Source: Petasospora fabianii (lineage: Eukaryota; Ascomycota; Saccharomycetes; Phaffomycetales; Wickerhamomycetaceae). From it: a DNA stretch of 64,000 bases. Positions 25,925 through 62,812 of this stretch are shown piece by piece; the stretch's first letter is position 1, and each line of letters begins with the position of its first letter. The DNA is taken from contig CP048720.1 in assembly GCA_022641835.1 (NCBI GenBank), forward strand, positions 558,001 through 622,000, in the 5' to 3' direction. A program made the translations under genes and the position numbers. Below the pieces are notes generated by a model. That model saw nothing but the letters and a program-made list of their open reading frames with translations. It did no database searches and was not told the origin of the DNA.

Positions 25925-27268
25925 ATGTCTACTGCAGTTCACACAGCTACACCAGCAGAAGCTCCAAAGGAAGGAGAGAAACTTATTGCAGGATCTCACA
26001 CACTTCCAGCCTCCTGGTGGTTCTCTCAGGACATCTTTGAGCTTGAGAAGAGAGCCATCTTTTCAAAGTCATGGCTTTACACTGCTCATGCCTCCACTTT
26101 TAAGAAGGCTGGTGATTATTACGCCTATAACTTCATGGGTATGCAGTTCTTCCTCATCAAGAACAGAAATGGAGATATCAAGGCCTTCCACAACATTTGT
26201 CGTCATAGAGCTTACCCAGTTGTCAGAAAGCAAAAGGGTTCCTCTGTTGTTCTTGGCTGTCTTTACCATGGTTGGTCCTACAACATGGATGGTGAGTTGA
26301 CCAAGGCCCCACAATTTGACAATGTTGCTGACTTTGACAAGGCTCAAAACTCTTTATACCCAATTCACACTTATATCACTGATCAGGGTCTCATCTTTGT
26401 CAACTTTGATAACTCCCCAGAGGGACCAATGCCATTTGGTGAGTTCTTCAAGGGTCTCGAGGAAGAATTCCATGAGTTTGACTTCTCCGACTACGAGTAT
26501 CACATGTCTTATGAGCTTGATGGTGAGTTCAACTGGAAGACCTTGATGGATGGATACATGGAATGTTACCATTGTCCAACTGCCCACCCGGGACTCTCTC
26601 AAGCTTTCATCATGAACACATACAAGGTTGAGCCAAGATCAAGACACGCTCGTCACTTCTGTGACATCAAGAGAAATGACGACTATGTTGCTCCAGCTCC
26701 AAAGAAAGAAGAGAGTAAAGGCTGGTTTGGTTTCGGTAAGCCAAAGGAGGTTGAGGAGAAAGCTGAGAAGAAGAATGTCGGTGGTGAATTTGATGGCTTG
26801 TGGATGTATCTCTTCCCAACTAATGGTATCAACTGCTATTCTCCAGCTTGGTACTCCATCAGAGTGTTACCAATCTCTCCATCTCATACAATCTTGCAGT
26901 ATGACATCTTCACTAAGAAGGGTTTGCCAAAGGAGGAGAAGGATGAATTTGTTGAGTTCCTACAACAAGTTGAGATTGAGGACTTTGACTTGTGTGTCAA
27001 GACCCAAAAGAACTTGAACCAAGGTATTTACTCCACTGGGTTCCTTCACCCAGAGAAAGAGAAAGGTGTTGTCTTTTACCAAACCTTGGCTAAAGATATG
27101 TGCAAAGAACACTATGCCAAGGAGAAGGAGGTTGGTCATGAGATCAATCCAGCTAAGATTGGTAAGGATAAAGGTGCTGAGGATACTGATGAGTTGGAGG
27201 AGATTTGTAAGAACTTGGAGTGTAAAGGTGCTAACCCAAACACTTTTGCTAATGAGCTGAACTGGTGA
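25925..27268 (+). CDS. Rieske non-heme iron mono-oxygenase (choline mono-oxygenase-like)
   Basis: 447 residues. Residues 92-115 hold the Rieske [2Fe-2S] ligands: CRH (C92, H94) and CLYH (C112, H115). The catalytic domain has NWKTLMDGYMECYHCPTAHP, giving iron ligands H216 and H221. A later acidic residue, probably the third ligand, lies in VEIEDFDLCVKTQKNL. The architecture fits the alpha subunit of ring-hydroxylating and choline mono-oxygenase enzymes, which also need a reductase not seen here. A Lys/Glu-rich insert (about 258-285) is unusual. The neighbouring DUR3 and GATA sites suggest use of an organic nitrogen source such as choline or betaine. Substrate is not certain. S. cerevisiae lacks an obvious homologue. 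Confidence 0.88.
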   Translation: MSTAVHTATPAEAPKEGEKLIAGSHTLPASWWFSQDIFELEKRAIFSKSWLYTAHASTFKKAGDYYAYNFMGMQFFLIKNRNGDIKAFHNICRHRAYPVVRKQKGSSVVLGCLYHGWSYNMDGELTKAPQFDNVADFDKAQNSLYPIHTYITDQGLIFVNFDNSPEGPMPFGEFFKGLEEEFHEFDFSDYEYHMSYELDGEFNWKTLMDGYMECYHCPTAHPGLSQAFIMNTYKVEPRSRHARHFCDIKRNDDYVAPAPKKEESKGWFGFGKPKEVEEKAEKKNVGGEFDGLWMYLFPTNGINCYSPAWYSIRVLPISPSHTILQYDIFTKKGLPKEEKDEFVEFLQQVEIEDFDLCVKTQKNLNQGIYSTGFLHPEKEKGVVFYQTLAKDMCKEHYAKEKEVGHEINPAKIGKDKGAEDTDELEEICKNLECKGANPNTFANELNW

Positions 27269-29639: not shown

Positions 29640-30413
29640 ATGTCGGTTCCGGATCTTGTGATTGATCCTAGTCTGAAGTATTGGGTCCTTGTGCCCATCT
29701 CACTTGCTCTGGTGCTGTTCGGAGTGCTCAGACAATCCATCAACGTGCTACTCTCCCCGGCTCCACGTCTCACACAGCTGAACAAACTGAGAGAGCAACA
29801 ATATCTCAAGAAGGCACAATTGTTCAAGACCAACTTCTGGAACTTACCAAAATCCGAATTCCTTATCAGACAATCACACATGTGCGACAAACTTAACAGT
29901 GGCGACTACCTCGCTGACAAGCCTACGAAGGAAGTTGACATCACACAGAACCCATTCACAGACCCTAACGCTTCAGATGCCATGATGGAGATGGCCAAGA
30001 ACTCTTTTGGTAACATGATTGCACAAACTGCCATGATGGGTTGGGTTAATTTCTTCTTTGCCGGGTTTGTTCTAATGAAACTTCCCTTCCCACTCACACT
30101 CAGATTCAAACAGATGCTCCAATCAGGTGTTAACACGAGTGATCTCGACGTGAGATGGGTCTCATCCATCTCATGGTATGTCATTGCCATGCTCGGTCTG
30201 AACTCTGTATCCAATGTCTTGTTTGGAGATGGAAACATGGCAAGTCAGATGATGCAGCAACAGCAGCCAATGGGTGGAGTTCCTATGATGCCAGGTGCTG
30301 GTGGTCCAAAACCTGACAAACTGATGAAGGCAGAGGCTACTGACATCCAGATCCTTCCATACAAACACGTTCTTGAGAATGTCGGTGACAGAGTGTTGAA
30401 AATCTATGGTTAA
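29640..30413 (+). CDS. EMC3: ER membrane protein complex subunit 3
   Basis: 257 residues (253 in S. cerevisiae). Three spans: about 15-32 (YWVLVPISLALVLFGVL), 128-150 (AMMGWVNFFFAGFVLMKLPF) and 175-195 (SSISWYVIAMLGLNSVSNVL). Between spans 1 and 2 is a cytosolic coiled segment with LREQQYLKKAQLFKTNFW. This is the Oxa1-superfamily insertase core of EMC, which inserts tail-anchored and moderately hydrophobic spans. The Met- and Gln-rich patch (SQMMQQQQPMGGVPMMPG) near residue 205 lies in the flexible methionine-rich loop expected of such insertases. Tail-to-tail with the a-factor-like gene, 408 bp apart. Confidence 0.93.
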   Translation: MSVPDLVIDPSLKYWVLVPISLALVLFGVLRQSINVLLSPAPRLTQLNKLREQQYLKKAQLFKTNFWNLPKSEFLIRQSHMCDKLNSGDYLADKPTKEVDITQNPFTDPNASDAMMEMAKNSFGNMIAQTAMMGWVNFFFAGFVLMKLPFPLTLRFKQMLQSGVNTSDLDVRWVSSISWYVIAMLGLNSVSNVLFGDGNMASQMMQQQQPMGGVPMMPGAGGPKPDKLMKAEATDIQILPYKHVLENVGDRVLKIYG

Positions 30414-30821
30414 TGTACCAGGGGCCTGGTGTCTAATGATTATGACCAATGAACAACTTGCATGGTAGCATCTACGGTAGTACTACGTATCATGGAAGTT
30501 TAAAAAAAAAAGCCGTATATGAAGACCATAAGAACAATCATTTGCAACAGATACTAACAGAAATCAATGAAGACCAATCACCGAAAGTAAACAAAATCTC
30601 AAACTCAAGATAACACAACGACATGGTAAAGAAACAAAAGCAAATATCTCACCAGCAAAGGCACCGCAAGATCTTCACATCTGTGTGGAAAGGAAAAGTG
30701 AACGGAGCTGAAAAGATAAGGAAAAGTCAAAAGTCAAAACCAAACAAATGAAGGGGGAACCGAAGTAGTATCGGTACCTTACATATCATGGTTGAAGGTT
30801 GTGCGGTAGTAGCACCAACGC
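30414..30821. other. Intergenic, 3' ends of EMC3 and a-factor gene 1
   Basis: 408 bp, A-rich, without open frames of note. Presumably the 3' UTRs of the two convergent genes. Confidence 0.55.
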
Positions 30822-30932
30822 TTAAGCGATGGTGCAGACGACCCACTGGTTACCCCAAAGCAAGAGGTTGTCAACGTTGTCGGAGGACTCCTTTGGAGCG
30901 GCAGAGGAAGTAGCGATAGTAGTTGGCTGCAT
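30822..30932 (-). CDS. a-factor-like mating pheromone precursor 1
   Basis: A 36-codon gene, too short for usual gene calling. It starts MQPTTIATSSAAPKESSDN, strikingly like the S. cerevisiae a-factor leader (MQPSTATAAPKE), and ends in the CaaX box C33-T-I-A36. The core after Asn22 is LLLWGNQWVVC. By analogy with ScMfa1, cleaved between Asn and the next residue by Axl1/Ste23, the mature peptide would be these 11 residues, farnesylated and carboxymethylated on Cys33 and exported by Ste6. The processing site is inferred. A TATAAAAG box (31009-31016 on the minus strand) and an a2-Mcm1-like operator (31145-31167) lie upstream. A paralogue is at 37182. Confidence 0.93.
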   Translation of the reverse strand: MQPTTIATSSAAPKESSDNVDNLLLWGNQWVVCTIA

Positions 30933-31704
30933 TGTAAAAGTGATTGTGATTGTTTGATGAGGATTAAAGATGAGATGAATCTGAGATCAAACAACGTCAA
31001 AACAGCTCCTTTTATAGACTTTTGGCGATTTGAGGCTCGACTTTCTGATGCTTTAGATCATGTATACATGAATCAATTATTATTCATTCAATTGAGCTAA
31101 TCATGCAAGTCAACATCCTGGTTGTGTCAAGCGAGTCCGCTGCATTTCCCCTTTGGGACTGAACAATGCGGACTGCCGAGAACAATCCTACAGATTCTTT
31201 AAGATCGCCACAAATGAGGCCAAATATCTGACAATTGGCTGCATAGATTAGGTGCATGAATAGCATTACTGAGATTCTGTAAGATTTTAGAATGAGGCAA
31301 ACAAGTCTCGAGGAGTTAGAATCGTCAGATAATCATGATCCGGTGTATCAAGGACAACTTGAACTCCTCCCGGACCTAAACAACAGCTCAGCTAGTCTAA
31401 TGGCCATCATATTCTGTAAGATATATTTCAGTTTCAGCAATAGTAACTATTTCCATGAATCGAGTTGACCATCAGGGTTGTTTTTTCATCAATCCGACAT
31501 CATATAATACTGCATTGTCACTTCCTGAATGAGCGAACATGGTTCAAAGTACATTACAACCATGCATCCAATACCAAAACCACCAGTAGCCCCAAATCGT
31601 ATGTAAGAGCCTCACAACACATTATCCCAAAACTACATTCACAATGGAGTGTCAAACCAGGTCTGAACCACGTGTATCTTTGTATTACAATGCTACTCAG
31701 ATGA
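30933..31704. promoter_or_regulatory. Promoter region of a-factor gene 1 and 3' flank of CCT5
   Basis: 772 bp. The first 240 bp hold the TATA box and operator for the pheromone gene. The rest has no gene or RNA that I can recognise. Confidence 0.55.
31145..31167 (-). promoter_or_regulatory. a2-Mcm1-type operator of a-factor gene 1
   Basis: On the minus strand the element reads ATTGTT-CAGT-CC-CAAAGG-GG-AAA, starting 213 bp upstream of the ATG. ATTGTT is an HMG-box site; CC-N6-GG with flanking AAA is an Mcm1 (MADS) site. Exactly the same spacing and orientation recurs at 36945-36967 before a-factor gene 2. In lineages outside the S. cerevisiae clade, a-specific genes are activated by the HMG protein a2 with Mcm1 through such joint sites. 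Confidence 0.75.
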
Positions 31705-33354
31705 TCAGTACTCGTCCTTACCACTGATGATGACGTTGTTAATCTTCAAGATCATTCTAGTCAACTGAGTGGCAAGCAACAATTGCTGCTTCTTACCGAT
31801 AAGTGGGTCAACAACAAACAACTCCTTCATATCGTTAGAACCCTTACCCAAACAATCCACACCCAAGTGAGAGTTCTTCTCTCTAACCTGCTTGGATTTC
31901 ACATTGGCCAAAGTCTCAATTGGGTCCAAACCAGAGTTCTCGGCAAGAGTCATTGGGATCTGATCCAGGGCATTAGCAAAAGCTCTGAAAGCGTATTGGT
32001 CAATACCCTTCTGTTTGTCAGCAGCCTCAGAGACAGCCAACGAACATGTGATCTCTGCAGCACCACCACCGTAGACAACTCTGGAATCACGGATCAAGTT
32101 ACGTACCACGCAGAGAGAATCGTGAAGAGCACGCTTAGCCTCGTCAACGATCATTCTGTTGGAACCTCTAAGGAAACATGTCACGGCTCTAGAGTTAGAA
32201 CATTCCTCAATCACAAGCATACGGTCTCTTGTTGTACCAAACTCCAACTCGTAAACCTTACCGGCAGAACCGAGTTTCTCTGAGCTGAGGTCTTCGAAAC
32301 GTGGCACGATACGACCATTTGTAGCAATAGCAATGAGCTCAAGCTCCTGACCACCGACCCAGCGAACGGCTGGAAGTTTGTTCTGTAGAAGCAAGTGGTT
32401 GGCTTCATCATCGAATCCCCACTGACAGATAACCAAATTGGCACCAGAATCCTTCACTTGCTGCACCATCTCCTTAAACTTGTTTTGTTCGTACTCTTGC
32501 AAGTTCTTAAATTCTTCCACGGATGAAATATCGAGTTTATGCTTGGTCTTTGGCTTCGGTGGTTCAAATGGACATGTTAATATAGCGAGCTTGACATCTT
32601 CAATTCTCTTTGGCATCTGTGGATGAGAGAAGTCTTTATCCAAGATAACACCCTTGATAAGTCTAGAATCCTCCAATGATCCACCAACCTTACCTTCTAC
32701 CTTAATCAATTCAAAGTCAACATCTTTTCTCTCCTTATCGGCAACGGACAAGACGGCATCCACAGCCATCTGTGCGAAATGCTCGTGGTCCTTAGACACA
32801 ATCTTGGATCCTAAAGAGGTCTTAGCAGCTTTCAAAAGCACATCAATGTTATTTTCTATGTTGTCAGCAACACTGTCAAGCTGATCAATGGCAACCTTGC
32901 ATGCCTCATCGAAACCGTTAGCAATCTTGATTGGGTGGATACCCTTGTCGATGAGCTCGAGGGCCTGATCGAGCAAGGCACCAGCGAGGACAACAACACC
33001 AGTGGTACCATCACCAATTTCATCATCTTGAGACTTGGACAACTCGACGAGCAATTTGGCAATCTCATTATCGAGCTCCATTTGGGAAAGAATGGTAGCG
33101 CCGTCATTTGTAATTGTGATCTCTCCATCAGGGGAGATGAGAATCTTGTCGAGGCCTCTTGGACCGAGAGATGTCTTGATAATAGATGCAACGGCACGTG
33201 CAGCAAGGATATGTGTCTTCTTAGCTTCGAGACCGTGTGCTCTCTGTTTCTTTCCCTGGTCTTTAACAATGATCAATGGTCTTCCCATCTCGTCCTGGGC
33301 CACGATGGCGTTGGACATGTCCGGCATCTCCATCATTTGTGGGTGCTGAGCCAT
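31705..33354 (-). CDS. CCT5: CCT/TRiC chaperonin subunit epsilon
   Basis: 549 residues, intronless (562 in S. cerevisiae). The apical and equatorial blocks of group II chaperonins are clear: [57 protein letters not shown] (ATP site) and [17 protein letters not shown]. The epsilon class is indicated by the N terminus ([19 protein letters not shown]) and [15 protein letters not shown]. It folds actin and tubulin as part of the double eight-membered ring; Arp3, another actin-fold protein, is encoded nearby by chance. Divergent from RPA12 over 377 bp. Confidence 0.96.
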
Positions 33355-33731
33355 CTTGAAAACGTGACTTTTTTGTTGTGATCTGTTCCTGAGGGGTATC
33401 TAATGAGATGAAACTCTAGTCAAACAGACAATTCACAAAATTATAACGTGGAAACTGCACCAAATCACACTTCGATGGCGTCTTCTTTGGTGGTCGACGC
33501 GTCGAAAAAAACGCGGTACTTGGCCCTCCCTAGGAGGCCGGGTAATCCTTAGGCTTAACACGCTTATGTCATCAGATTAGGGGCGCTGATGTAATCCACG
33601 GTACGGGCCGCATTTCTGAAATTTTTTGGTTCCGAAGAGATGATGGAGTTGCATTTCTATCTCGGACTTGATCTTTGAGACGTCTTTATCCTTCCTACCA
33701 GATCATTACATACACATCCACAACCTTCACA
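33355..33731. promoter_or_regulatory. Divergent promoter CCT5/RPA12
   Basis: 377 bp. It contains a 12-bp perfect palindrome TCGACGCGTCGA (33494-33505) with an MCB core ACGCGT, followed by an A tract. No gene is seen. Confidence 0.5.
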
Positions 33732-34103
33732 ATGAGTGTCATCGGCTCCCTCATCTTCTGTCTCGATTGCGGTAACCTACTCGACTCCGCTGCCAACAAG
33801 AAGACCATCACATGTGGTGATTGCAGCAGATCATATAACTCCAAGGACTTTTCTGGTCTTAAAGTGGTGACAAAATCCTCTGATGATGCCTTCCCATCTG
33901 CTCTTAAACTCAAGAAGTCTGTGGTCAAGACAACGCTCAAGTCCAACGATCTCGAAGAAGGTGCTACGATTAAGGAGAAGTGTCCACAGTGTGGTAACGA
34001 AGAGATGCAATATCACACCCTCCAACTTCGTTCCGCTGATGAAGGTGCCACAGTCTTTTACACATGTACAGGATGTGGTTACCGTTTCAGAACCAATAAC
34101 TGA
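33732..34103 (+). CDS. RPA12: RNA polymerase I subunit A12.2
   Basis: 123 residues from the ATG at 33732 (125 in S. cerevisiae); the in-frame extension upstream lacks a good start. The N-terminal zinc ribbon is CLDCGNLL with a CGDC pair (about residues 10-33). The C-terminal TFIIS-like ribbon is CPQCGNEE, then QLRSADEGATVFYTCTGCGY, with the acidic DE of the RNA-cleavage hairpin. It gives Pol I its intrinsic 3' cleavage activity during rRNA synthesis. Confidence 0.96.
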   Translation: MSVIGSLIFCLDCGNLLDSAANKKTITCGDCSRSYNSKDFSGLKVVTKSSDDAFPSALKLKKSVVKTTLKSNDLEEGATIKEKCPQCGNEEMQYHTLQLRSADEGATVFYTCTGCGYRFRTNN

Positions 34104-34403
34104 AATTATCTTTACTGGTTGTTTTGGTTCTCGGTTCGCCTTGGTTACGGTTTCATGTCATGCATTTCATCTTTTTTCCCCCTTCTACTTCTTCTTACTG
34201 CTCTTTTTTCGGTATTAATCATTGAGCTGGCTCTAGAACATGGACCCAGTTCTCCTCAAGTTGTATCATACTCAGTCATCTACGTCATCATATGTACTAA
34301 AATCAAAATTAACGTATACTCATGACAAACAAACACCTGAAATAAAAAAAAGAAGCGAAAATAATAACTTAGAAGTAAACCTCTCGACCCGAAATGTCAT
34401 CGC
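34104..34403. other. Intergenic, convergent 3' ends of RPA12 and LIA1
   Basis: 300 bp of T-rich then A-rich sequence, consistent with two 3' UTRs. Nothing else is recognised. Confidence 0.55.
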
Positions 34404-35360
34404 TCAAGCAGCGGTGGCATACTCAAGCTCGTTAGAGTTCTCATACTCATACATATCGAGAGCCACGATAGCGGAGTCTCTGACAACTTCATCGCTGTCC
34501 TTGGCAAAGTCCTGAAGAATTGGAAGAACATCATCTGTAGCAATTGAACCAAGGGCCTCGGCAGCCTCGTGTCTAACCATTGGAGCCTCAGTCTCGTTCT
34601 TCAAAACCTTAACAAGGGATGGAACAGTAACTGGATTACTGAGTTGACCAAACACGTAGGCAATCTCGTGCTTGAACAATGCAGATGGGTCATCGAAACC
34701 TGTAGCAAGAGCGAGACAAGCCTCATCGGAACCAATATCTCTGAGTCTAAACATGGCTCTGTAACGCTCAAACAACGGCGTAGACTGGTCATTCAAAATC
34801 TTTGTGAGCTTCTCAATCTTGTAATCTTGGTCGAGGGCCAATGGTGGAGCTGGATCGATGGAGGAGTAGGCACTCTCCTGGAGCTTCTCGGTGTTAGCCT
34901 TCTCAGAAGTCTCCCACTTGATTCTCTCAATTGCGAGCTCACACGTTTGTCTGATCTCGAGAAGAGGGTCGTTCTTGAAATACTTTTCGAGCAATGGAAG
35001 CGATTCAACGTCGTTCAAAGCACCAAGAGCCTCAGCAGCCTCGTGTCTAACCATGCACTGCTGACCCTGCTCATCGATGAGCACATCTCTAAGAATCTGG
35101 GCACCGGCCAAGTTCTTTGTCTGGCCAAGAACGTAGGCAACTTCGTGCTTGAGAAGTTCAGAATCATCTCTGAAACACTCACCAATGTACTTGACAGCGG
35201 TGTTAGCCCTCTCTGGGTCCTCTTTAAACTCAGAACCGATAGACTTCAAGTTAAAGAGGGCTCTGAATCTGACAGCGAGCTTGACATCACCTGACTTGTT
35301 GATCAAAATGTCACGGAGTTGCTCCAAAGTAGCGTTATCGACGTCCTGCTCAACACTCAT
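34404..35360 (-). CDS. LIA1: Deoxyhypusine hydroxylase
   Basis: 318 residues (325 in S. cerevisiae). Eight HEAT repeats in two halves with four His-Glu iron ligands: [36 protein letters not shown] and [12 protein letters not shown]. The enzyme is a di-iron mono-oxygenase that converts deoxyhypusine to hypusine on eIF5A (Hyp2). All metal motifs are intact. Divergent from ADD66 over 513 bp with A and T tracts. Confidence 0.96.
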
Positions 35361-35873
35361 TCTGTCTGTAAGTTATAATAAAAAGGAAATCAACCCAAGT
35401 CTTTAAAACTGTGGGGTGCAAAAGAGGTGCAATTGGTGAACTTTTTTTCCTCTTGACATAAAAAAGAAAAAAGAAAAAAAAAAATCAAAAAGCTCATCGC
35501 ACCACCCCACACTGCGTAATTCTGAGAACGTCTGTTACTGTATTGGGGCTATGCGCAGCGTAATTGTCAGCACAGTATTCCAATATCTACTCCATTTTGA
35601 TACTTAATTCCACTGATAAGGTTTTAAAAATGGATAGACAAACACCTAATAGGTTACCTACTTAGATAACATCGTATTATGGACTGCAAAATGCCCAAAT
35701 CTCCCCCAAAACACTCCCTTGCTAGCGTTATCTAAACCATATGGTAAGCGCACGCTCAGAATGAGAATTAACCTCGAGGATCAGAAAGACAACGCCACTG
35801 GTGAAGAATTAACAATCACAGACGCTTTTGGATTGCCCATTATTGCACAATTGTCTTGATCTCAAGGCCCAAA
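35361..35873. promoter_or_regulatory. Divergent promoter LIA1/ADD66
   Basis: 513 bp. A poly(A)-rich block at about 35456-35495 is likely nucleosome-excluding. No gene is seen. Confidence 0.5.
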
Positions 35874-36644
35874 ATGGCAGAATTCTTCCCTGTCTCAGCT
35901 ACAGCTTCAAAAAGCGAGATCTTCTCGCAATTGGAGGGATCTAAACTGATAGTTCCTTCCATCGCTATCGGTAACGTCCCCCAGCTTTCAGCTGATTTAC
36001 TCCTTCACAATCTCGGCACCAAGCTGATTGCAAGACTCGACTCAACGCTTCTCTATCCATTTGCGTCTCCAGTTGACTATGTTCTAGATGGATCATTAAA
36101 GCAGACAAATGAGATCAGCACGGGGCTCGAACTGTACTTCAACGATTCGACCAAGATCGCAGTGATCCAACAAAGATCCCCAATTCTTCCAGGATATGCT
36201 AAAAACTTCCTTGACTACCTTGTCTCATTTATCAAGGCTTCCAAATTTACATCTGTGATCGTGCTAGACTCGAATGAAGCTGCCCTCAGAGAGGACATCA
36301 ACATCGACAGACCTCTCGAACTTTACTCCAACAACTTAACTGAAAACTTCAAATCCCTCAAGGTAACAACATCTGACTCAAGCGATAAGCTCGAAACTTC
36401 ATTTACTCCATTCGTGTCTGCTCTCGTTTCTGAACTCAAGAGAGCCACAGATCTCACTGTGTATGCGTTGGTCATCTACGTGTACGAGGGAGACAACACA
36501 TATGATGCACAAGTCTTAGCTGCTGAAACAGTTGGTGTCTTGGAAGTTGAAACACCAAAGGAATGGAAGATACCTGTGTCATGGAGTGGTGCCTATGGTG
36601 ATAGACCGCTTCCGTCCGGTTTAAATGAGGGTATCTATGGTTGA
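35874..36644 (+). CDS. ADD66: Proteasome assembly chaperone 2
   Basis: 256 residues from the ATG at 35874 (267 in S. cerevisiae Add66/Pba2); an upstream TTG is disregarded. The PAC2 fold is suggested by KLIVPSIAIGNVPQLSADLL, TGLELYFNDSTKIAVIQQRS and FLDYLVSFIKASKFTSVIVL. It pairs with Pba1 to build alpha rings of the 20S proteasome and stop premature dimerisation. The C terminus here is NEGIYG, lacking an HbYX-like end, as expected for the Pba2 side. Convergent with a doubtful small frame at 36658. Confidence 0.85.
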   Translation: MAEFFPVSATASKSEIFSQLEGSKLIVPSIAIGNVPQLSADLLLHNLGTKLIARLDSTLLYPFASPVDYVLDGSLKQTNEISTGLELYFNDSTKIAVIQQRSPILPGYAKNFLDYLVSFIKASKFTSVIVLDSNEAALREDINIDRPLELYSNNLTENFKSLKVTTSDSSDKLETSFTPFVSALVSELKRATDLTVYALVIYVYEGDNTYDAQVLAAETVGVLEVETPKEWKIPVSWSGAYGDRPLPSGLNEGIYG

Positions 36645-36657
36645 AACTAGGGTGCAA

Positions 36658-36876
36658 TTATCTTGTGGTGTCAGCATATGCATGAGATAAAATATTATCT
36701 GGAAACCTTGTAGTTTGAGCTTCAACAACCATATTGTCATTGCTCATCACGGTAAGATAGACTCTAGATGCGACATGGTCGACCTTGACATTACCCTGTG
36801 CATAATCGCCACCTGTCATTCGCCAGGATAGGCGACCTAACTGGCATTTAGGGTGCGACTTAATGCAGATGCTCAC
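36658..36876 (-). CDS. Doubtful small open frame (72 codons)
   Basis: Starts at an ATG (MSICIKSHPKCQLGRLSW) and ends SHAYADTTR. It faces a-factor gene 2 across the operator. I recognise no family. The sequence is not low-complexity and could be a real small protein or the 3' exon of a spliced one, but chance is equally likely. Confidence 0.25.
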   Translation of the reverse strand: MSICIKSHPKCQLGRLSWRMTGGDYAQGNVKVDHVASRVYLTVMSNDNMVVEAQTTRFPDNILSHAYADTTR

Positions 36877-36944
36877 TATGCTGATATAACGTTTTGTAAA
36901 AGTTTAGTGCGGTGGTAAATTGATGAGACTTGGTATCTGTACCT

Positions 36945-36967
36945 ATTGTTACTTCCCGATTTGGAAA
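36945..36967 (+). promoter_or_regulatory. a2-Mcm1-type operator of a-factor gene 2
   Basis: ATTGTT-ACTT-CC-CGATTT-GG-AAA, ending 215 bp before the ATG at 37182. The core TTCC-N6-GGAAA is a good Mcm1 P-box. Spacing, orientation and distance match the element of gene 1. Confidence 0.78.
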
Positions 36968-37093
36968 ACGCGGGGTCGCTTGACACAGCTAGTAGCATCG
37001 ATCGGCAGCTCACTTCACCCAAAGAGATTAATTGGATGCAGCTATATTTGTTACATTTGTTTCAGCTTTGTTTCATATAGTGGGGCGTAAAAC

Positions 37094-37101
37094 TATTTAA
37101 G
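37094..37101 (+). promoter_or_regulatory. TATA-like box of a-factor gene 2
   Basis: TATTTAAG, 81-88 bp before the ATG. This is comparable to the TATAAAAG 77-84 bp before gene 1. Confidence 0.5.
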
Positions 37102-37181
37102 CCGTTCCCCTCTCCCATGTTTAGACTGGGTTTGAATCCAATCGTCCTTCCTCATCATACCACGCTCGCTCTCATTCAACA

Positions 37182-37292
37182 ATGTCTCCATCTACTCTCG
37201 CTACTACCTCTGCTGCTCCAAAAGAGTCTTCCGACAACTCTGACAACCTTTTGCTTTGGGGTAACCAGTGGGTTACTTGTACCATTGCCTAA
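37182..37292 (+). CDS. a-factor-like mating pheromone precursor 2
   Basis: 36 codons, same length as the gene at 30822 and 30 of 36 residues identical. The leader reads MSPSTLATTSAAPKESSDN, then after Asn22 the core LLLWGNQWVTC and CaaX box CTIA. The predicted mature peptide differs from that of gene 1 only at its tenth residue (Thr for Val). Differences elsewhere are conservative leader changes at positions 2, 4, 6, 9 and 20. As in S. cerevisiae, two genes encode nearly the same lipopeptide. They lie about 6.3 kb apart in opposite orientation with CCT5, RPA12, LIA1 and ADD66 between them. Preferential expression in MATa cells is inferred from the operator. Confidence 0.93.
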   Translation: MSPSTLATTSAAPKESSDNSDNLLLWGNQWVTCTIA

Positions 37293-37618
37293 GCTTTTAC
37301 CTGCTTGAGGTACTTATCATAGCTGGTCAATCGCTCTCCGCTTGAGATGCTCATCACAGCTGGTCATTCTCTTCCTGCTTGAACGGCCTTTGCCATTATG
37401 ATCTCCTCCTACTATTTGGCACTTGAAATACAAATACAAGAAACTTTTTATTTTTTTAAGTCATTACACTAGCCATTCGTAGGCCATGAGAGCTTGGATC
37501 GATCGATCATCAGTTAGCTGGTCTCTCATACATGCACGTCTTCCTTTACATCTACAAAACAAGGATTACCTGATAATAGCACATGTTTGTTGGGTATACA
37601 GAAACCCATGCAAGTTCA
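37293..37618. other. 3' flanks of a-factor gene 2 and YAE1, with a tandem repeat
   Basis: 326 bp between convergent genes. 37303-37376 holds two imperfect 37-bp tandem units (see the repeat entry). No other gene is seen. Confidence 0.6.
37303..37386 (+). repeat. 37-bp imperfect tandem repeat after a-factor gene 2
   Basis: Unit 1 at 37303-37339 and unit 2 at 37340-37376 both begin GCTTGAG and contain ATCA-AGCTGGTCA. A third partial unit (GCTTGAACGG) starts at 37377. It begins 10 bp after the stop codon, so it lies in the 3' UTR. Confidence 0.8.
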
Positions 37619-38161
37619 TTAATTCATAACAACATCCTCATTAGAACTTGATAGCTCTAATCTCTGCTGCTTCACAAGTTGTTCAACTTCTATCTTCCAC
37701 TTATTTACCACTGTGTGTCCTTCTTCGGGCAGCTGCACGTTATCATCAAAGTAGCGTCTATGAAGGACCTTTTTGATGTGAAGTTCTGTCTTTGCTGTCG
37801 ATAAGAGCTCTTTAGCCTTGGTTCCAGCAACACCATTGAATGATGACAAAAGCTGGAGAGTACCTAAAATCTTACCCACCTCGAGCCCGATAATAGCACC
37901 ACTAGGGTATCCTTCGTCAAAACCTTGTTGTAGACTCTCCTCCTTAGCACTGCTAAGACCTGCTAGGTATCCCTGCTTAGCATGAACCCTCCTCACAGCA
38001 GCGATCTCTGCATTCTCAGGACGATCTGTTCTCTCCCCATAAAAGTCACCATCATCAACGTTAGGATGGAACTCTCCCCCATCACTCGCCCAAATATCGT
38101 CATCACTAATATCCGGTGACTCCACCTTTGTTCTTTTCAGTGACCTGTCAATTTCCGCCAT
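37619..38161 (-). CDS. YAE1: Yae1, deca-GX3 adaptor for cytosolic Fe-S protein maturation
   Basis: 180 residues. The N terminus is acidic (DISDDDIWASDGGEF). The deca-GX3 domain is visible as spaced glycines in HAKQGYLAGLSSAKEESLQQ, GFDEGYPSGAIIGLEVGKIL. S. cerevisiae Yae1 is 141 residues; this one is longer at the C terminus. With Lto1 it recruits the ABC protein Rli1 to the CIA targeting complex. Two CGCGAA motifs are 73-90 bp upstream of its ATG. Confidence 0.9.
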   Translation of the reverse strand: MAEIDRSLKRTKVESPDISDDDIWASDGGEFHPNVDDGDFYGERTDRPENAEIAAVRRVHAKQGYLAGLSSAKEESLQQGFDEGYPSGAIIGLEVGKILGTLQLLSSFNGVAGTKAKELLSTAKTELHIKKVLHRRYFDDNVQLPEEGHTVVNKWKIEVEQLVKQQRLELSSSNEDVVMN

Positions 38162-49670: not shown

Positions 49671-49782
49671 ATGGTTCATACACCCAAGGTTTCCTACAAA
49701 TACGGTGCAATAAGAACATTTTGTTATTCATTTCTGCATGATAGGACAAATAAAACTAAGTAGCTCACCAGTAGCCCTAGAC

Positions 49783-51030
49783 TTAGTAGTCATTGTCTCT
49801 TCTGGAACCATAGGAATCGCTGTTGTCACGACCACCGTAGGAAGATCTCTCATTGTCGTTACCGAAAGAAGATCCACCGTATGAGTTGTCGTTGTCTCTG
49901 TTGGACGAGCCATAAGAGGAAGAGCCATATGAGGATCTCTCATTGTCGTCGTCTCTGTTGGACGAGCCGTACGAGGATCTCTCGTTGTCGTTACCGTAAG
50001 AAGATGAGCCATAAGATGACTTCTTGTTGTCTTCATCATATCTGTTAGAGGAACCGTACGATGATCTCTCATTGTCGTTATCTCTGTTGGAGGATCCGAA
50101 AGTGGAAGATCCGTAAGATGACTGGTTGTTGTCTCTGTTGGAGGAGCCATACGAAGATCTCTCGTTGTCGTTACCATAAGAGGAAGAACCGTAAGAGGAC
50201 TTCTTGTTGTCATCATCATCTCTGTTGGAGGAACCGTAAGAAGAGGAGCCATAAGAGGACTTCTTGTTGTCATCGTCATCGTCTCTGTTGGAAGAACCAT
50301 AGGAGGAAGAACCATAAGATGACTTCTTGTTATCATCGTCTCTGTTGGAAGATCCGTAAGATGAAGATCCGTAAGAGGACTTCTCATCATCTCTGTTAGA
50401 GGAGCCATACGAAGATCTCTCGTTGTCGTTGCTGTAAGAGGAAGATCCGTAAGAAGACTTCTTGTTGTCATCATCATCTCTGTTAGAGGAACCATAAGAG
50501 GAAGAGCCGTAAGAGCTCTTCTTCTTGTCATCGTCGTCATCATCATTTCTGGATGATCCGAAGAGACCGCCAGAGGACTTGTTCTTCTTGTCGTCGTCGT
50601 CGTCGTCGCCATCTCTGTTAGAGGAGCCATAAGATGATCTCTCATTGTTATCATTTCTGTTAGAAGATCCGTAGGAGGAAGATCCGTAAGATGACTGGTT
50701 GTCATCTCTGTTAGAGGAGCCATACGAAGATCTTTCGTTGTCGTTACCGTAAGATGAGCCGTAAGAGGACTTCTTGTTGTCATCATCATCTCTGTTGGAG
50801 GAACCGTAAGAGGAAGAACCGTAAGAGGACTTGTTGTTGTCATCGTCTCTGTTGGAGGAGCCATAGGAATCATCTCTGTTGGAAGAGCCATAAGAAGATC
50901 TCTCATTGTCATTGTCGTTATCGTTCAACGAGGTCTTAGAAAGCTTGTCTCTGATGAGATCTTCGGCCTTGTCGAAGTTGTCTCTGTTGTTCTCATCCTT
51001 CTCGCCTCTAAGTTTGTCGAGTAATCCCAT
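49783..51030 (-). CDS. DDR48: DDR48-type stress protein made of SYGSSNRDD repeats
   Basis: 415 residues. A unique N terminus MGLLDKLRGEKDENNRDNFD and a helix with KAEDLIRDKLSKTSLNDND match the start of S. cerevisiae Ddr48. More than 30 repeats follow, with units such as SSYGSSNRDDDNKK and SSYGNDNERSS. The end, SYGSRRDNDY, also matches. The protein is hydrophilic, intrinsically disordered and very poor in hydrophobic residues other than Tyr. Ddr48 is induced by heat, DNA damage and osmotic stress; its molecular role is unsettled. The repeats make a long spurious frame on the same strand and a shorter one on the opposite strand. Copy number is probably unstable between strains. Confidence 0.93.
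   Translation of the reverse strand: MGLLDKLRGEKDENNRDNFDKAEDLIRDKLSKTSLNDNDNDNERSSYGSSNRDDSYGSSNRDDDNNKSSYGSSSYGSSNRDDDDNKKSSYGSSYGNDNERSSYGSSNRDDNQSSYGSSSYGSSNRNDNNERSSYGSSNRDGDDDDDDKKNKSSGGLFGSSRNDDDDDDKKKSSYGSSSYGSSNRDDDDNKKSSYGSSSYSNDNERSSYGSSNRDDEKSSYGSSSYGSSNRDDDNKKSSYGSSSYGSSNRDDDDDNKKSSYGSSSYGSSNRDDDDNKKSSYGSSSYGNDNERSSYGSSNRDNNQSSYGSSTFGSSNRDNDNERSSYGSSNRYDEDNKKSSYGSSSYGNDNERSSYGSSNRDDDNERSSYGSSSYGSSNRDNDNSYGGSSFGNDNERSSYGGRDNSDSYGSRRDNDY
49786..50911 (-). repeat. DDR48 internal tandem repeats
   Basis: Degenerate repeats, mostly multiples of 24-48 nt, encoding SYGSS-type units over about 1.1 kb. Near-identical blocks suggest recent expansion by unequal exchange or slippage. Confidence 0.85.
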
Positions 51031-61387: not shown

Positions 61388-62812
61388 TCAATCTGACCGT
61401 ACGATTGTCAAATTGCTGAGGGGGATCCTATACTTAAACGACTCCTTGGAAAGCCTCATGTCATCCCATACTTGTTGAAGATCCTTAACAAAAGATAATC
61501 TCTTTGCTTGCTCCTTGATCTTTGTCAAGGAAAACAACGTCTTCAGCTCCAAATAGTGAGGTCTCTCCTTCTCCGTTTCTCCAAACACACCGGCATCATC
61601 CCAGTCCCATCTTGGGGGACCTGAGCCGATCTGGGCCTTGAGTAAATGCGTGGCATTAGTTACTGCATTAGTGATGCTCTTGAGATCCTCAGATGTGTAG
61701 GTGTAGTTCTCATTGATATCAATCTCCTCAAACCAGTTATCGTATGGCAACTTGTCAGTGGAGTCCTTGTTGATTACATTCCTTAAGAAGGCATTGGCCA
61801 GGCCTAATACTTCAGAGGGCTTACCAAATCTTGGGTCCAAATTAGTTGGTGTATACAAATACGGTGTTCTGATGATGGCCAATGAACCTTTATCATATTC
61901 GTACTGGAGCTTAGTGATGTCATCCGCAATCAAAGGATACAACGGAGTGGCATTTTCGGCATTGCATTGGATTTCATATGGTTTGGCAAACAGCCTGGAA
62001 CTTTTCATTCCTGTCAAGTACTTCTTCTTATCTTCATCCGAGTTGTTGCATTCGAATAATCCTCCAACCCACGTTCTTGGAGCGTATATCATCAAATCTC
62101 TCAAGGCGTATTTCTTACGTCTTGCCATCTTGTAGCAGTGCATATCAGTAATGTCCTCGGAATCGATCTCAGTATATGAGATGGGTTTCAAATCTTCATA
62201 AGCAACCCTATTGGAATCCTGGTTGAAGTAGTCAAGGAATCTGGTCTTTGAAATGCTGTTCAAAAAGGACAGGAACTTGTCCCTGATTGATCTCTTCTCC
62301 AACACCTGTGGTGGTCGCTGATTTGTTATATCAACAGCATGAGGTCTCGTTGGAGCATCTTCAATTGTAAGATTTCTGAATAGAAACAGACTAGTGTTCA
62401 TCTTTTTAGTCTTTTTGTTTCTCTCTGGTCTGGAGACGACAATACCTCTATCATCGGTGATTCTCTTGTTACCCAAGAAGCACATCGGCTTGGACCATTC
62501 AATATCAGTGTCACGGCCAGTTCTTTCGAGTCTTTCAGATTTCAACTCACCAAGTTCACAATTAGATAAGGACACAAAATGCAATAGTGGTGGCTTCATA
62601 CCTTTCAAAACCATATGTCTCTGGATCTTAAAGCCCGAGTGCTCAATGAACTTATTCAAATCACCATCTTTGCAAACAGAGTTTTCGTAATTAGACAGGC
62701 TAGACAGAGAAGGAAAGAGGTTGATTGGAATAGGAGTTGCATGGACGGCATGGTATGGCTGGGTAATGATGATGTAGAGGATCAGTGTAATGTCGCTTAA
62801 GAGAAGACGCAT
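61388..62812 (-). CDS. Secreted protein of unknown function, six cysteines
   Basis: 474 residues from the ATG at 62810-62812. A signal peptide is likely (residues 1 to about 25, LLLSDITLILYIIITQPYHA). Only six Cys follow, in SVCKDG, LSNCELG, KPMCFLG, MHCYKM, FECNNS and IQCNAE, which would fit three disulfides. Several N-x-S/T sequons are present (NATP, NYTY, NATH). A dibasic VLEKRS near residue 170 could be a Kex2 site. I recognise no family. The rest is a mixture of helix and strand with no low-complexity regions, so it is likely a folded wall or secreted protein. Confidence 0.7.
   Translation of the reverse strand: MRLLLSDITLILYIIITQPYHAVHATPIPINLFPSLSSLSNYENSVCKDGDLNKFIEHSGFKIQRHMVLKGMKPPLLHFVSLSNCELGELKSERLERTGRDTDIEWSKPMCFLGNKRITDDRGIVVSRPERNKKTKKMNTSLFLFRNLTIEDAPTRPHAVDITNQRPPQVLEKRSIRDKFLSFLNSISKTRFLDYFNQDSNRVAYEDLKPISYTEIDSEDITDMHCYKMARRKKYALRDLMIYAPRTWVGGLFECNNSDEDKKKYLTGMKSSRLFAKPYEIQCNAENATPLYPLIADDITKLQYEYDKGSLAIIRTPYLYTPTNLDPRFGKPSEVLGLANAFLRNVINKDSTDKLPYDNWFEEIDINENYTYTSEDLKSITNAVTNATHLLKAQIGSGPPRWDWDDAGVFGETEKERPHYLELKTLFSLTKIKEQAKRLSFVKDLQQVWDDMRLSKESFKYRIPLSNLTIVRSD

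Follow-up and report, generated by a model that had tools for sequence, protein, structure and literature searches.

Two candidate a-factor pheromone genes in inverted arrangement in the yeast Petasospora fabianii

Results

Two small frames and their coding character

In a stretch of 64,000 nucleotides of the budding yeast Petasospora fabianii (contig CP048720.1, positions 558,001 to 622,000 of the forward strand; the window below, its first letter being position 1), two frames of 36 codons, named here copy A and copy B, lie in inverted arrangement and very probably encode precursors of the mating pheromone a-factor (Table 1). A preliminary description, made from the letters of this DNA, had reported two such frames with 30 of 36 residues in common, CTIA ends and outward orientation, and all of this was found again, copy A being directed leftward and copy B rightward. 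At the nucleotide level 92 of 111 positions are identical (19 differences), and the arms of the inverted repeat that hold the copies are spaced by 6243 nt. The predicted mature cores differ solely in V or T beside the cysteine of the CaaX box. A six-frame scan of the window gave no third copy of the core, the next best segment matching it in 7 of 16 residues. Just 3' of copy B there are two tandem 37-nt copies, 76% alike (37303-37376), and block comparison of the flanks gave no counterpart of this repeat 3' of copy A.

Table 1. Positions of the two frames, their parts, promoter elements and inverted repeat in the window
Feature	Position	Strand	Remarks
Copy A (MFA-type), 36-codon a-factor precursor gene (predicted)	30822..30932	minus	MQPTTIATSSAAPKESSDNVDNLLLWGNQWVVCTIA, C-terminal end VVCTIA
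Copy A leader, codons 1-22	30867..30932	minus	contains AAPKE, last residues DN; processing predicted from S. cerevisiae
Copy A predicted mature core LLLWGNQWVVC, codons 23-33	30834..30866	minus	cleavage predicted
Copy A CaaX box CTIA, codons 33-36	30825..30836	minus	
Copy A TATA-like element	31009..31016	minus	TATAAAAG, starts at -84
Copy A promoter module	31118..31175	minus	CATTGTT (HMG/a2-type), CCCAAAGGGG (Mcm1-type), TCGCTTGACACA; ATTGTT from -235
Copy B (MFA-type), 36-codon a-factor precursor gene (predicted)	37182..37292	plus	MSPSTLATTSAAPKESSDNSDNLLLWGNQWVTCTIA, C-terminal end VTCTIA
Copy B leader, codons 1-22	37182..37247	plus	processing sites predicted
Copy B predicted mature core LLLWGNQWVTC, codons 23-33	37248..37280	plus	cleavage predicted
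Copy B CaaX box CTIA, codons 33-36	37278..37289	plus	
Copy B TATA-like element	37094..37101	plus	TATTTAAG, starts at -88
Copy B promoter module	36937..36992	plus	TATTGTT (HMG/a2-type), CCCGATTTGG (Mcm1-type), TCGCTTGACACA; ATTGTT from -237
Two TGTTTCA words, copy B promoter only	37058..37075	plus	start at -124 and -113
119-nt inverted repeat, left arm	30817..30935		83% complementary to right arm
119-nt inverted repeat, right arm	37179..37297		

Counting both strands, the window has 667 ATG frames of 15-80 residues; six have a CaaX-like end and three a strict CaaX, and copies A and B are two of these three. By codon make-up, with 23 presumed window genes as training set, the pair takes the first and the fourth place among 327 window frames of 25-60 residues, and it exceeds 73% and 52% of 320 blocks of 36 codons drawn from the same 23 presumed genes. 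The 19 differences fall on sense codon positions 1, 2 and 3 as 6, 3 and 10, with synonymous divergence (dS) of 0.50 and nonsynonymous divergence (dN) of 0.13 over the whole frame. Codons 23-36 have collected six synonymous steps and, in codon 32, two nonsynonymous ones; conservation of the copies is highest in the core. Small as they are, the substitution counts agree with a conserved peptide that is preceded by a less constrained leader.

The CTG codon is most likely read as Leu in this yeast, because the residues aligned with it are Leu, Ile or Val and never Ser or Ala: comparison by eye of 13 of 37 CTG codons (12 of the 36 in TOR, those preceding residue 1000, plus the only one of CCT5) with the PDB chains 5fvm and 4v81 gave Leu in eight cases and Ile or Val in five. 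With no Ser or Ala at these positions, CUG-Ser and CUG-Ala decoding are both unlikely. A tRNA scan of the window run with bacterial settings found none.

Similarity to a-factor precursors

Both copies have two features of the a-factor class, a short precursor (36 residues) and a C-terminal CaaX box, and they resemble known a-factor precursors, Mfa1 and Mfa2 of S. cerevisiae, outside that box as well. PF17317 (MFA1_2, mating hormone a-factor) is the sole Pfam family that either precursor matches at E up to 10, with E 0.011 (profile 1-34 of 34) and E 0.051 (profile 4-34 of 34), whereas in a random sample of 50 from 139 other small window frames with 30-42 residues none matched MFA1_2 at E up to 1. 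Against this profile the two S. cerevisiae precursors reach 66.4 and 76.8 bits. Global alignment of each copy with each of them gave Z of 6.3-6.9, and in each of the four comparisons the alignment score was attained by none of 5000 shuffled sequences in which M and the CaaX end stayed in place. A search of PDB sequences with copy A returned three chance-level matches only (E about 0.5).

In the alignment with Mfa1, AAPKE stands opposite AAPKE, and the DN right before the core opposite DN, in agreement with the earlier claim of a leader like that of S. cerevisiae. The core LLL-W-G-NQ-W-V(V/T)-C pairs with YII-K-G-VF-W-DPA-C; it is diverged and one residue shorter, while the layout is kept, with the hydrophobic triplet, G, W and C retained. 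The core had been described as unlike the S. cerevisiae one, which holds for most of its letters but overstates the difference, because it aligns at full length and with the same layout. A fast-changing core is normal for a-factors. Besides these core positions and leader motifs, MFA1 and MFA2 of S. cerevisiae share with our pair a length of 36-38 residues, an M(Q/S)P start, a CaaX box and the number of two genes per genome; apart from the core, whose letters are mostly different, the distinction is in the CaaX box, CTIA here and CVIA there.

Related promoters

Aligned locally, the 300 bp upstream of copy A and the 300 bp upstream of copy B score 224, where 276 pairings of the window's other upstream regions reach 167 at most, and the best of 1674 window tiles for the copy A promoter, tiles around copy A itself being left out, is the promoter of copy B. 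When the regions were compared in blocks of about 60 bp, the score of the block -245 to -186 was reached by none of 500 shuffles, that of -180 to -121 by 10, that of -120 to -61 by 39 and that of -60 to -1 by 6; for the three blocks above -245 it was 173 to 495 of 500, and for five downstream blocks 27 to 320. The upstream homology being confined to 245 bp, the unit common to both copies is the promoter together with the coding frame. At the level of sequence, what we demonstrate is the conservation of two small coding frames and of related promoters to about -245.

The best block of upstream homology is a module of 56-58 bp (39 of 58 columns identical), in which both promoters carry an HMG-type site beside an Mcm1-type site, a layout expected for a-specific genes under Mata2 and Mcm1. 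We take the pair of ATTGTT and CC-N6-GG to be an HMG (a2) site beside an Mcm1 site. The loose form ATTGTT N3-6 CC-N6-GG occurs at four sites of the window against a shuffle mean of 0.4 (maximum 3), the two further sites lying inside long frames, and the looser ATTGT N3-7 CC-N6-GG at seven against a mean of 1.9 (maximum 6). Genes that MATa2, acting with Mcm1, turns on in a cells would be expected to have such a layout, and with it and the conserved frames the copies look like two complete, a-cell-regulated pheromone genes. The TGTTTCA words of the copy B promoter are of the Ste12 pheromone-response-element type.

Discussion

From our analysis we consider it very probable that copies A and B are a pair of paralogous genes for a-factor in a budding yeast reading CTG as Leu, activated by Mata2 and Mcm1 and giving lipopeptide products. 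The a-factor reading had been proposed in the preliminary description and is now supported by the sub-cut-off MFA1_2 match, the alignment with S. cerevisiae precursors, the codon statistics, the substitution pattern and the promoter module.

For regulation, processing, export and reception of the predicted pheromones we draw on what is known of the family. In a cells, Mata2 with its HMG box and Mcm1 would bind the module near -235 and turn both genes on. In the cytosol the cysteine of CTIA in the precursor would be farnesylated, TIA removed and the new end carboxyl-methylated, and the leader would be taken off by two cuts, the first probably before AAPKE and the second after DN, giving the predicted product LLLWGNQWV(V/T)C-farnesyl-OMe, an 11-residue lipopeptide. 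A Ste6-type transporter would export this lipopeptide, and Ste3 on alpha cells would sense it. The pair itself probably comes from an old duplication of promoter and coding frame, and the two gene copies probably raise the pheromone output.

Several of our own results weigh against this interpretation. The MFA1_2 scores of 15.9 and 13.7 bits are under the curated cut-off of 25 bits, so the copies are not formal members of that Pfam family. In the leader dN is 0.17 against dS of 0.25, so that dN/dS is not low there. The ungapped 24-mer test of the promoters was not decisive, two of the 276 other pairs being as good, unlike the gapped and block-wise comparisons, and the strict ATTGTT/CC-N6-GG-type pattern, found in the window at the two promoters only and in none of 200 shuffles, was written post hoc, after both sites were known. 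Pair-alignment scans for relatives in viral and prokaryote contigs gave 107 and 50 pattern matches, none of them confirmed, which weighs little because those collections should hold no yeast DNA. To the same side belongs a report on O. polymorpha of no constitutively a-specific genes besides MAT (PMC5720833), so a-specific expression is not assured for our pair either; such control may act perhaps under mating conditions only, or be absent.

In Komagataella phaffii, STE2 transcription and mating of a cells depend on MATa2 (PMC5748462), and in the line of S. cerevisiae alpha2 repression took over from MATa2 activation (PMC2253631); S. cerevisiae relies on alpha2 repression, whereas the promoters described here have an HMG-type box beside an Mcm1-type box. 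The MFa gene of P. kudriavzevii, by its published description, encodes a precursor of 41 residues with a CTIA end and has an MFa pseudogene upstream (PMC6053246). It is similar to our pair in the small precursor with the CTIA end and in a second, defective copy nearby, and differs in that here the precursors have 36 residues and the other copy is intact, inverted and 6 kb away. MFa of O. polymorpha was annotated upon induction by STE12 overexpression in an interval of 111 bp immediately upstream of RAD17 (PMC5720833). Compared by interval, this is the length of each of our frames including the stop, but none of seven scanned neighbours here belongs to the RAD17 family. Taken together, the CTIA end and a promoter of the Mata2 type would suit a yeast of the Pichia/Ogataea/Komagataella group.

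According to a Huntiella paper, it is well established that a-factor genes are duplicated in Saccharomycetes and Taphrinomycetes; there are at most three of them, in most cases slightly different, and the mature peptide is highly conserved (PMC10182648). Sequences of farnesylated pheromones vary across the phylogeny, as stated in a paper on Ste6 (PMC7243462). With paired a-factor genes common in yeasts, copies A and B look like a sound but ordinary addition. Srikant, Gaudet and Murray in 2023 reportedly found short CaaX a-factor candidates of Saccharomycotina in 241 of 332 genomes, many species being said to have more than one a-factor gene with near-identical cores, and our two genes are possibly already in this yeast-wide survey.

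A single working pheromone gene, with the other copy silent or beginning to decay, is an unlikely alternative, for which speak the pseudogene next to MFa in the P. kudriavzevii account (PMC6053246) and the difference of the promoters, with two TGTTTCA words in copy B alone; but both frames are open, the CaaX, the core, the TATA-like element and the promoter module are kept in both, and both copies stand high in the codon make-up ranking. Still less probable is that the copies are small farnesylated proteins with a non-mating job. Many non-pheromone proteins do carry CaaX ends, yet the similarity to a-factor goes beyond the CaaX box, MFA1_2 is the sole Pfam match and the HMG and Mcm1-type module is present in both promoters. 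It is hardly credible that the frames are no genes and owe their existence to a repeat or to an antisense frame overlapping them, although such an antisense frame is open across both copies and matches between them at 30 of 36 positions, stop included, since the antisense frames are outside the 12 best of 327 by codon make-up where the sense frames are first and fourth, the differences are distributed by sense codon position, and the similarity to a-factor is whole-length. On this evidence we set aside the readings as chance frames, as an antisense gene or as a CaaX protein other than a pheromone.

It is conceivable, though we give it little weight, that the two genes have parted roles, one basal and the other pheromone-induced, or differently tuned, and that an inverted block of about 6 kb has the pair at its ends. 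Parted roles come into consideration because V or T beside the cysteine differs and the Ste12-type word pair is in copy B only.

Our general understanding of a-factor is unchanged by this pair. Genes of such length easily escape annotation, and the cores of a-factors change too quickly to be followed by ordinary homology searches; the pair with its promoter module can serve to mark mating-type regulation in this lineage, and V and T offer a natural test, with two variants, of the way in which the residue next to the lipid is read by Ste3.

Neighbouring genes and other observations

The copies had been said to flank CCT5, RPA12, LIA1 and ADD66, and this is confirmed by sequence for a CCT5-type chaperonin subunit and by family for the other three, an RPA12-type zinc-ribbon protein, a HEAT/PBS-repeat protein that fits LIA1 and a PAC2-family protein that fits ADD66. 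Beyond the pair, family matches indicate an EMC3-type gene to the left of copy A and a YAE1-type gene to the right of copy B. Turning round the segment between the copies (region 29640-38161) would put EMC3 and ADD66 adjacent and convergent, the order that their systematic names YKL207W and YKL206C imply for S. cerevisiae. It hints at an inversion between the copies, or at a duplication made at its breakpoints, and such an inversion may have copied a pheromone gene or made use of it as a repeat. A literature search for gene-order support of the inversion found nothing, and the idea stays a lead.

Farther from the pair, a frame of 474 residues at 61388-62812 begins in a hydrophobic, signal-like manner and matches no Pfam family at E up to 0.001. 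A frame of 415 residues at 49783-51030 consists largely of SYGSSNRDDD-like repeats, and a second long frame, 49728-50912, is open over it on the same strand. Amid ordinary yeast housekeeping genes, a gene of the Rieske or ring-hydroxylating oxygenase alpha-subunit type is located at 25925-27268.

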